A stretch of 41,547 bases of DNA from Victivallaceae bacterium (GTDB taxonomy: Bacteria > Verrucomicrobiota > Lentisphaeria > Victivallales > Victivallaceae), in the NCBI GenBank assembly GCA_028691615.1, contig JAQUYX010000005.1:1-41547 (forward strand). The letters are read 5' to 3'. Positions 15,437 to 20,765 of the stretch are shown here, one piece after another (within the stretch, counting starts at the first letter, position 1; each line of letters begins with the position of its first letter). The notes below the pieces were generated by a model, which was given only the letters and a program-made list of their open reading frames with translations, did no database searches and was not told the origin of the DNA. A program made the position numbers and the translations under genes.

Positions 15437-15478
15437 AAAAAAACGCCCGGAGGATTGCTCCCCCGGACGTTGTTTTTT
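15437..15478 (-). terminator. Terminator of groEL
   Basis: On the minus strand ACGTCCGGGGGAG pairs with CCTCCGGGCGT (about 11 bp) and is followed by a run of nine Ts. It lies just after the groEL stop. Confidence 0.85.
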
Positions 15479-15500: not shown

Positions 15501-17135
<1,635 letters not shown>

Positions 17136-17192: not shown

Positions 17193-17489
17193 TCAGCCGA
17201 CAATTGCCAGAATGTCGTCGCAGCCGACCACTTTGTATTCCTTGTCGCCGACCTTCACTTCGGTCCCGCCGTAACGGCTGGTCAGAACCTTGTCGCCAAC
17301 CTTCACGTCAAAGGGAACTTTCTTGCCTTTGTCATCGGTCTTGCCGGTGCCCAGCGCGATCACCATGTACTCCTGCGGCTTCTCCTTGGCGGTGTCCGGA
17401 ATGAGAATCCCGCCCTTCATCTGATCCTCGTTCTCGCAGATCTCCAAGAGTACCCGGTCGCCAAGCGGCTTAATGTTGACTTTCGCCAT
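17193..17489 (-). CDS. groES: 10-kDa co-chaperonin GroES
   Basis: This 98-residue protein caps the GroEL ring. The mobile-loop region reads [20 protein letters not shown], and KPLGDRVL and SRYGGTEVK are family hallmarks. AAAGGAG precedes the ATG by 7 bases. It follows dnaK after 130 bases that contain an 8-bp hairpin but no consensus CIRCE element. Confidence 0.98.
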
Positions 17490-17619: not shown

Positions 17620-19554
17620 TTACTTGTTGTCGTCGACCACTTCCGCGTCGATGATGTCGTCCTTGCCGCCTTTCGCCTCACCGGCGGCGGCATTGCCGTT
17701 CGGGGGCGGAGTGCCGGCTTCCGCGCCGGCCGCGCCCTGCGCCGCGCCCTGCGCATTCTTCTGCGCGTAGATCGCTTCGCCGAACTTCATGAGCTTCTCT
17801 TCCAGCTCCTTGGTGATCGACTTCATCGATTCGGTGTCGTCCTTCTCAATGGCCTTCTTCAGGCGTTCGACCCCTTCTTCGACGGGCTGCTTGACGTCCG
17901 CGGGCAGCTTGTCGCCCAATTCCTTGAGCTGCTTCTCAATCTGATAAACCAGCGAATCAGCATGGTTTTTCGTCTCGATTTTGTCCTTGACCGCCTTGTC
18001 TTCGTCGGCGTGCGACTTGGCTTCGTTGACCATGCGGTCGATTTCCGCGTCGGTCAGGCCGCTCGAAGCGGTAATGGTGATCTGCTGCTCCTTGCCGGTG
18101 CCCAGATCCTTGGCGGTCACATGCAGAATGCCGTTGGCGTCGATGTCGAAGGTCACTTCAATCTGCGGCACGCCGCGCGGCGCCGGCGCAATGCCGTCCA
18201 GCCGGAAGCGCCCGATCGACTTGTTGGCACTGGCCATTTCCCGCTCGCCCTGCAACACGTGGATGTCGACCGAGGGCTGATTGTCGCTGGCCGTCGAGAA
18301 GATCTCGCTCTTGCGGGTCGGGATCGTGGTATTGCGCTCAATGAGCTTGGTGGCCACGCCGCCCATCGTTTCGATGCCCAGAGAAAGCGGAGTGACATCC
18401 AGCAGCAGCACATCGTTGACCTGTCCGCCGAGCACACCGCCCTGAATGGCGGCGCCGCTGGCGACCACTTCGTCCGGGTTGACTCCCTTGTTGGGTTCGC
18501 GGTCGAAAATCGTCTTGGCCATCGTCTGGACTTTGGGCATACGGGTCATGCCGCCGACCAGAATGACTTCCTTGATGCCGCTCTTGGTCAAGCCGGCGTC
18601 GCGCATGCAGTTCTCGCAAGGAGCGACCGTGCGTTCCAGAAGTTTGTCGCAGAGCTGTTCGAGCTGAGCGCGGGTCAGCGTGACATTCAGATGCACCGGG
18701 CCGTCCGCATTCATCGAGATGAACGGCAGATTCACGTCGGTGCTCATGCTGCTGGAAAGTTCGCACTTGGCTTTTTCCGCAGCTTCCTTGAGCCGCTGCA
18801 GCGCCTGCGTGTCCTTGCGCAGATCGACGCCGTTGTCCTTCTGGAACTGCTCCGCCAGAAAGTCGATCACCGCCTGGTCGAAATCATCGCCGCCGAGGTG
18901 GGTGTCGCCGTTGGTGGCCTTCACTTCGAACACCCCGTCGCCGATTTCCAGAATCGAAATATCAAACGTACCGCCGCCGAGGTCGTACACCGCAACGGTC
19001 TCTTCGCTCTTCTTGTCCAGTCCGTAGGAGAGTGCGGCCGCAGTCGGCTCGTTGATGATCCGCAGCACTTCCAGTCCGGCGATTTTGCCGGCGTCCTTGG
19101 TCGCCTGCCGCTGGCTGTCGTTGAAGTACGCGGGCACGGTGATGACCGCCTGCTTGATCTCTTCGCCGAGATAGGCTTCCGCGTCGGTCTTCATCTTCTG
19201 AAGAATCATTGCGGAGATTTCCGGCGGAGAATACTGTTTGCCGCCGGCCACGATGGCCACATCGCCGTTGGGGGCTTCCGCAAGTTCATACGGAACCAGA
19301 TGCTTTTCCGAACCGATTTCGGAGAATTTGCGCCCCATGAAACGCTTGACGGAAAAGATTGTATTTTTGGGATTGGTGACTGCCTGACGTTTGGCCGTCT
19401 GACCGACCAGGCGTTCGCCGTTCTTGGTGAATGCGACGATCGACGGAGTCGTCCGGTTGCCTTCCGCATTGGGAATGACTTTGACTTCGCCGTGATCCAT
19501 GACCGCCATGCAGCTGTTGGTCGTACCGAGGTCGATACCGAGAATCTTGCTCAT
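17620..19554 (-). CDS. dnaK: Hsp70 chaperone DnaK
   Basis: This 644-residue chaperone binds exposed hydrophobic segments of client proteins under ATP control. The start shows [14 protein letters not shown]-type phosphate-binding residues (here [11 protein letters not shown]), then [13 protein letters not shown] and [12 protein letters not shown]; the substrate domain and a Gly/Ala lid tail end in DDIIDAEVV. The ATG at 19554 follows GGGAGGAAAG and is the only plausible start. The frame upstream of it is noncoding. Neither grpE nor dnaJ is adjacent, unlike many dnaK loci. A sigma-54 promoter lies upstream. Confidence 0.98.
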
Positions 19555-19613
19555 AATTCTTTCCTCCCTGATTGGGTTTTTGCTTGTCGTTTCAAAATTA
19601 CGCTTTGAAGATA

Positions 19614-19630
19614 AGCAAGAGTCGTGCCAA
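19614..19630 (-). promoter_or_regulatory. Sigma-54 (RpoN) promoter of dnaK
   Basis: On the minus strand the -24 element TTGGCACG (19623-19630) and the -12 element TTGCT (19614-19618) are separated by four bases. GG and GC are exactly 10 bases apart, as the RpoN consensus TGGCACG-N4-TTGCW requires. The start would be near 19603, 49 bases before the ATG, with a good ribosome-binding site in between. No sigma-70 promoter of comparable quality was seen here. Confidence 0.75.
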
Positions 19631-19661: not shown

Positions 19662-19709
19662 GTGCCAAAAGTGCGACAGGCGGTGCGTCGCCGCGTCATT
19701 TTGGCGCAC
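19662..19709. promoter_or_regulatory. Imperfect inverted repeat upstream of the sigma-54 promoter
   Basis: GTGCCAAAA (19662-19670) and TTTTGGCGCAC (19699-19709) form an imperfect inverted repeat about 60-105 bases upstream of the predicted dnaK start. This is the distance range used by enhancer-binding proteins that activate RpoN promoters. No activator gene is present in the window. Confidence 0.35.
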
Positions 19710-19742: not shown

Positions 19743-20765
19743 TCAGTTCCCGGTGAAATCCGCCTTGACCACCGCGTGAAACGGTTTTCCGGAGAAGGCG
19801 CAGCCCGATTCCAGCCACCTGCGCGCTTCCCCAATCTGCAGATCGAAGCGCTGCCGCAGCATTCCGAAGCCCGCCCGCCCTGCGATCCGGGGCACTGCGT
19901 CAAACGAGAAAAGCCAATAGTCCCGCCCCGCGATCCGCCCGTACCGTTCGGCTGCGTCCAGCAGCGGATCAAGCAGATTCAAATTCATGACAAAAATGCT
20001 TTTCGGCGCTTTTGCGTCTCCGAAAATCGATTCGCCCAGCGCCGCGATTTCCACGGCGGGATTCTCAAATTCCCGCAGAAAACAATATTCCGGCGTCAAC
20101 TGGTAATCCTGATGGATTCCGCGTTCAAAAAACGAAATGATCCGTTCCGCCAGATAAGGATATCGCGGGTCGGCCCGGTAAGAGAGAAAGGTGATCGGCC
20201 GCCCGCCGCGCTCCGTGAGCCAGCGCAGCCCTTCCTGCAACCCCGAGTGCGTGTCCGTCAGTACATAATCGAACGAGGCGTATTGACGGTTGATGATCAG
20301 CTGCGGCACGTTGCGCAGTCTGAGATAATCCATCGCGGAAAGCATCTCCTCCCGCGGCAGCATCCAGATGACGCAGCAGCCCGGTTCGCACAGCTCCTCC
20401 AGCCGTCCGAAAATCTGCCGTTCGGTAATCCGGACAATACTCAATGTGGAGGTCTCCCGCCCCGCAAGCAGCAATAATTCCAGTTCGCACAGCGCCGGCA
20501 GTCCGTTCCCCACAAAAACAATCCGTCCCGCCGCGGGGCGCGCGCCGGGGCGCAGAATCGTGGTACAGCTGCCTTTGCGTCCGCTCAGATACCCGGCGCG
20601 GGTCAACGCCGCGACCGCGCGTTCCACGGTGGTGCGTGAACACTTGTATTTGCGGGCGAGGACGTTGCGTGACGGCAGACGGCCGCCGTACCGCAGCGCG
20701 CCGCCGGACAGATCTTCCAGGATGGCTTTGACCAGAGCGTCGGTTTTGTTCAATCCCGCATCCAT
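19743..20765 (-). CDS. GntR-family regulator with LacI-type sensor domain
   Basis: This 340-residue protein has an N-terminal winged helix (about 8-72; LPSRNVLARKYKCSRTTVERAVAALTRAGYL split over two helices) and a C-terminal periplasmic-binding-protein-like ligand domain. This combination is common for sugar regulators in Lentisphaerota and Firmicutes. The ligand is probably a sugar, but that is an inference from the family. It lies 50 bases after an orphan permease gene on the same strand, and dnaK follows 188 bases later with its own promoter. Confidence 0.85.
   Translation of the reverse strand: MDAGLNKTDALVKAILEDLSGGALRYGGRLPSRNVLARKYKCSRTTVERAVAALTRAGYLSGRKGSCTTILRPGARPAAGRIVFVGNGLPALCELELLLLAGRETSTLSIVRITERQIFGRLEELCEPGCCVIWMLPREEMLSAMDYLRLRNVPQLIINRQYASFDYVLTDTHSGLQEGLRWLTERGGRPITFLSYRADPRYPYLAERIISFFERGIHQDYQLTPEYCFLREFENPAVEIAALGESIFGDAKAPKSIFVMNLNLLDPLLDAAERYGRIAGRDYWLFSFDAVPRIAGRAGFGMLRQRFDLQIGEARRWLESGCAFSGKPFHAVVKADFTGN

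Follow-up and report, generated by a model that had tools for sequence, protein, structure and literature searches.

The chaperone genes dnaK and groESL are usually controlled by sigma-32, by HrcA/CIRCE or by sigma-70. In a stretch of 41,547 nucleotides from a Victivallaceae bacterium (hereafter the window), the initial annotation had read a full RpoN consensus upstream of dnaK, which raises the question of whether a central chaperone operon is run from a sigma-54 promoter and, if so, which protein opens it. The best explanation as a whole is a working sigma-54 promoter on dnaK-groES-groEL that would be opened by a palindrome-bound activator, and we place its probability at about 0.85.

The dnaK promoter element and its operon

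The element, the genes behind it and the end of the operon are all found on the minus strand of the window:

19614 to 19630, minus strand: predicted sigma-54 -24/-12 promoter, TTGGCACGACTCTTGCT (from sequence and from conservation at dnaK loci of the order)
19603, minus strand: predicted +1, placed by its spacing from the -12 element, 49 nt 5' of the dnaK ATG (19554)
19562 to 19568, minus strand: ribosome-binding site GGGAGGA (from sequence)
17620 to 19554, minus strand: dnaK, 644 amino acids (Pfam HSP70, E 1e-271; NCBIfam DnaK)
17193 to 17489, minus strand: groES (Pfam Cpn10)
15501 to 17135, minus strand: groEL (Pfam Cpn60_TCP1)
15442 to 15471, minus strand: intrinsic terminator with a 13-bp stem and T run, directly 3' of groEL at the operon end

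The minus strand from 19630 to 19614 reads TTGGCACG-N4-TTGCT, a perfect match to the -24/-12 consensus in which 10 bases separate the GG (19628-19627) from the GC (19616-19615). The full match reported initially thus agrees with the sequence, as do the placement of the element 49 bases before dnaK and the good ribosome-binding site. RpoN itself is encoded in the source genome (200.8 bits; 391 bits against TIGR02395, where the cut-off is 277). Directly upstream of the promoter region lies a gene for a GntR-type HTH protein (19743-20765, minus strand) that fits no curated equivalog.

The initial annotation had further proposed that the promoter serves dnaK and probably groESL. In 102 of the order's 109 loci, dnaK is followed by groES in the same orientation, and in the window the stretch from dnaK to groEL holds neither a minus-strand sigma-70-type match nor a terminator, while the terminator directly behind groEL is strong. 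With this gene order, we judge it very likely that the predicted promoter drives dnaK-groESL.

The dnaK promoter is the sole exact match to TGGCACG-N4-TTGC in the window. When two mismatches were allowed, however, the window gave 18 matches against 17.8 expected, and the motif by itself is therefore weak evidence. Counting across the whole genome was uninformative, as 67 matches at one mismatch or fewer compared with 60 for a reversed-pattern control, which is no excess. Because motif frequency alone was not decisive, conservation was tested.

Conservation of the element among relatives

We located dnaK in 110 of the 137 genomes of the order and read the upstream DNA at 109 loci, accepting as a site any GG-N10-GC with at most four mismatches to the consensus. 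A site was present at 108 of the 109 loci; 49 of these had no mismatch, 25 had one, 19 had two, 11 had three and 4 had four. The opposite strand of the same upstream regions contained none (0/109), while shuffled upstream regions gave 38 sites in 1090 and distant 150-nt windows 45 in 1384, all of them with at least three mismatches. The invariant columns of the order's dnaK upstream regions, scored column by column, were confined to the -24/-12 element, namely TGGCA and TGC. An alignment of this kind had been proposed at the outset, with lack of conservation in close relatives as the outcome that would count against the promoter; the -24/-12 bases proved to be nearly universal in the order.

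Outside the order, the site was found at 37 of 40 additional loci from the class and phylum, at 12 of 14 named loci from Kiritimatiellae, Verrucomicrobia and Lentisphaerae, and at 27 of 30 loci from other, deeper-branching genomes of the phylum. Beyond the phylum it appeared at 1 of 51 loci. By its named relatives, the window belongs in Lentisphaeria, close to Victivallis. In position and in conservation, the predicted promoter stands above chance, and we regard it as almost certainly a real sigma-54 promoter. In many of the deeper-branching loci L414-L431, the dnaK element begins just 28-30 nt 5' of the ATG, which would put the sigma-54 start on the ATG or immediately beside it; dnaK mRNA in many of them is possibly leaderless.

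Signs of HrcA/CIRCE and of sigma-70 control were also looked for. HrcA was absent from all 137 genomes of the order and all 388 of the phylum (control genomes gave the expected result), no CIRCE element occurred in the window, and no CIRCE half-site was found near dnaK at the phylum loci scanned. In the order alignment there was no conserved TATAAT or TTGACA column upstream of dnaK, and the conserved columns revealed no second element.

One alternative is that the element is a sigma-70 promoter, or the operator of an unknown repressor, that merely resembles -24/-12. A perfect TATAAT does occur within 46 nt in six loci, for example directly 3' of TTGCT in L044 and L045, but neither TATAAT nor TTGACA is conserved as a column, the invariant columns coincide exactly with the RpoN consensus, and the distance to the start codon suits a sigma-54 start. 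Together with the phased palindrome upstream and the presence of RpoN and a near-universal activator (both described below), this makes such a reading highly improbable.

An upstream palindrome and a candidate activator

A sigma-54 promoter of this kind would need an activator, and a candidate binding site for one is found 78 bp 5' of the dnaK promoter element:

19692 to 19708, minus strand: candidate activator (enhancer) site, TGCGCCAAAATGACGCG, one mismatch to TGYGNCA-N3-TGNCRCA

This sequence scores 14.1 bits on a position weight matrix (PWM), compared to 6.8 bits at the 99.9th percentile of the null, and a window scan at one mismatch to the palindrome returned 2 matches against 0.39 expected. 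The palindrome at 19692-19708 was preferred to another in the window, at 19677 (GTCGCACTTTTGGCACA), whose score did not reach the null. Across the order, the exact palindrome occurred in 62 of 108 dnaK upstream regions (0.12 expected from shuffles) and a PWM match above the 99th percentile of the null in 102 of 108, the consensus and the matrix having been built from the same upstream regions as those scored. At a stricter threshold, it was found at 32 of the 40 additional class and phylum loci, 8 of the 14 named loci and 15 of the 30 deeper-branching loci.

At dnaK loci of the order, the palindrome lies between 57 and 163 bp from the promoter, at distances that recur about every 11 bp (R 0.75). 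A genus-level test, which lessens but does not remove the effect of shared ancestry, gave R 0.63 at 11.45 bp, a value reached by none of 20000 random placements. An activator that reaches the promoter by DNA looping needs such helical phasing, and the palindrome TGYGNCA-N3-TGNCRCA is likely the activator site.

The source genome encodes three clear sigma-54 activators: two GAF-domain proteins and one REC-AAA+-HTH response regulator. The two GAF-type activators (G000:C83, L228; G000:C69, L229) are of types that are both absent from several relatives. The third is:

Contig C144, 6127-7587, source genome: NtrC-type response regulator, REC-AAA+-Fis HTH, 487 amino acids

The C144 regulator has the full set of features of an NtrC-type enhancer-binding protein, with a REC domain that keeps the phosphorylatable site region, an AAA+ sigma-54 interaction domain bearing GAFTGA, and a Fis-type HTH whose recognition helix, NRT-AAE-LGISRRTLHRRL, is constant among orthologs. 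An ortholog is present in 134 of the order's 137 genomes and in all 61 high-quality ones, mostly at 49-62% identity, while paralogs stand at about 46% or less.

Five genomes (G050, G076, G097, G098 and G106) have exactly one activator gene, and all five still carry the dnaK promoter. Their single activator is always of the response-regulator type and groups with the C144 regulator (clade support 0.88). These genomes are drafts, 91-96% complete, and it is possible that a second activator was missed.

It could be proposed that in the source genome dnaK is activated by one of the GAF-domain proteins, C83 or C69, rather than by the response regulator; both proteins are present there with an intact AAA+ domain. 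However, there are relatives that share this promoter and palindrome but have no GAF activator, and the recognition helices of the GAF proteins differ while that of the response regulator is constant, as is the palindrome. Because single-activator genomes lack them, we set the GAF activators aside as improbable. The initial annotation had implied an unknown activator; the single-activator genomes together with the orthologs narrow the choice to one NtrC-type response regulator. In our judgement, the C144-type regulator probably opens the dnaK promoter.

In a strongly reduced, 0.9-Mb single-contig genome of the phylum (G160:C1, L439-L478), rpoN is kept (34.6% identity over 376 amino acids) and the -24/-12 element of dnaK is degenerate, with a palindrome about 102 bp 5' of it; an activator gene was not seen in the 800 of 916 kb (87% of the genome) that were read.

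A second chaperone operon and the proposed mechanism

In the source genome, a promoter of the same type (TTGGCACGCCTTATGCT) precedes hsp20-hsp20-clpB-htpG, together with a palindrome (TGCGTCATTCTGTCGCA). Among 54 clpB loci, 49 had a -24/-12 site, 42 of these 43-87 nt before the start, and five had none; the palindrome was above threshold at 33 of the 49. In the single-activator genomes and one two-activator genome, intergenic consensus sites fell mainly at dnaK and clpB. These patterns suggest that sigma-54 and the C144-type regulator very probably drive both dnaK-groESL and clpB. Two further exact -24/-12 matches in the source genome (G000:C182:12968, L007; G000:C186:35158, L008) each stand immediately 5' of a long open frame, one of which resembles the start of a glutamate dehydrogenase; these sites are perhaps targets of the GAF activators.

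We propose that RpoN-RNA polymerase on the -24/-12 element would stay closed until an activator, most likely the C144 NtrC-type response regulator, bound TGYGNCA-N3-TGNCRCA 57-163 bp upstream on a fixed helix face and opened the promoter using ATP. An unlinked histidine kinase that reads protein or envelope stress would phosphorylate the regulator and thereby switch it. RpoN and a regulator of this type would also drive hsp20-hsp20-clpB-htpG, so that the cytosolic chaperones would form a small sigma-54 regulon in place of the HrcA/CIRCE or sigma-32 control found elsewhere.

The nature of the signal is less firm. The promoter could instead provide general or nutrient-linked expression (nitrogen, carbon or growth state) under a near-constitutive activator that does not respond to protein stress. 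The curated families nearest to the C144 regulator by HMM are AtoC and NtrC, both under cut-off (413.6 bits against 558.6 for the NtrC equivalog), and no curated NCBIfam equivalog takes it in. The neighbors of its gene are pfkA (phosphofructokinase) on one side and a gene for an outer-membrane efflux protein on the other, with no kinase gene beside it. The nearness to AtoC and NtrC, this gene setting and the constant requirement for groESL would suit general expression, but the recurrent targets are chaperones (dnaK-groESL, clpB, hsp20, htpG), the signature of a proteostasis regulon, and the REC domain keeps its phosphorylatable site region. We consider general expression possible but rather unlikely, and a protein-stress signal behind the activator likely, if with modest confidence.

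Several points count against our favored explanation of a working, activator-opened sigma-54 promoter, among them the lack of a kinase gene next to the regulator, the reduced genome with no activator in the 87% read, the draft state of the single-activator genomes and the five clpB loci with no site. In addition, groESL is normally essential, and if sigma-54 were its only promoter, with nothing contributed by another, rpoN and the activator would be essential too. That would be unusual, and dnaK-groESL may have a weak second promoter.

Whether sigma-54 and one orthologous response regulator make up the principal chaperone and heat-shock system of the entire phylum (GTDB Verrucomicrobiota, including Lentisphaeria and Kiritimatiellia), replacing HrcA and sigma-32, is in our estimate an even bet. 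If so, rpoN and the response regulator would be essential or nearly so across a phylum that covers gut, soil and aquatic lineages, and its central chaperones would depend on an activator that needs to be switched on, which suggests that the response to protein damage is organized differently here. A small sigma-54 regulon (dnaK-groESL and hsp20-clpB-htpG) with a defined candidate enhancer would also offer a system for studying two-component sensing of protein damage.

Sigma-54 chaperone promoters are already known or predicted elsewhere, in Bradyrhizobium (groESL3) and in Planctomycetota and Bacteroidota; the open-access literature searched held no earlier report of them for Lentisphaerota, Kiritimatiellota or Verrucomicrobiota. 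Bradyrhizobium groESL3 is one of several groESL copies and belongs to the nitrogen-fixation regulon of NifA and RpoN. Its expression is RpoN-dependent (PMC4842269) and, as predicted here, a chaperonin operon stands behind a -24/-12 promoter; in contrast, the present case involves dnaK-groESL and clpB across a phylum, together with an activator of the REC type and another palindrome. In Planctomycetota and Bacteroidota, the DnaK, GroES, GroEL, IbpA, GrpE and DnaJ families are enriched behind predicted sigma-54 promoters (PMC12316311), likewise a cluster of chaperone families. The accessible text of that report, however, does not name Verrucomicrobiota for chaperones or include Lentisphaerota and Kiritimatiellota, and it names no activator or enhancer site for chaperones, for both of which we found candidates. 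The HrcA/CIRCE system of Chlamydia shares the coordinate control of dnaK and groESL (PMC8762339) but is a repressor system, with HrcA absent from the 388 phylum genomes and CIRCE from the window. Myxococcus xanthus HsfA is an NtrC-like response regulator that directly controls the heat-shock gene lonD (PMC9109919, citing Ueki and Inouye 2002); hsfA shares its operon with the gene for a hybrid kinase, and its listed targets include lonD and secondary-metabolite and pilus-related genes. The C144 regulator has no adjacent kinase and its proposed targets are dnaK-groESL and clpB, but the likeness to HsfBA would be that of an NtrC-like response regulator acting on heat-shock genes.
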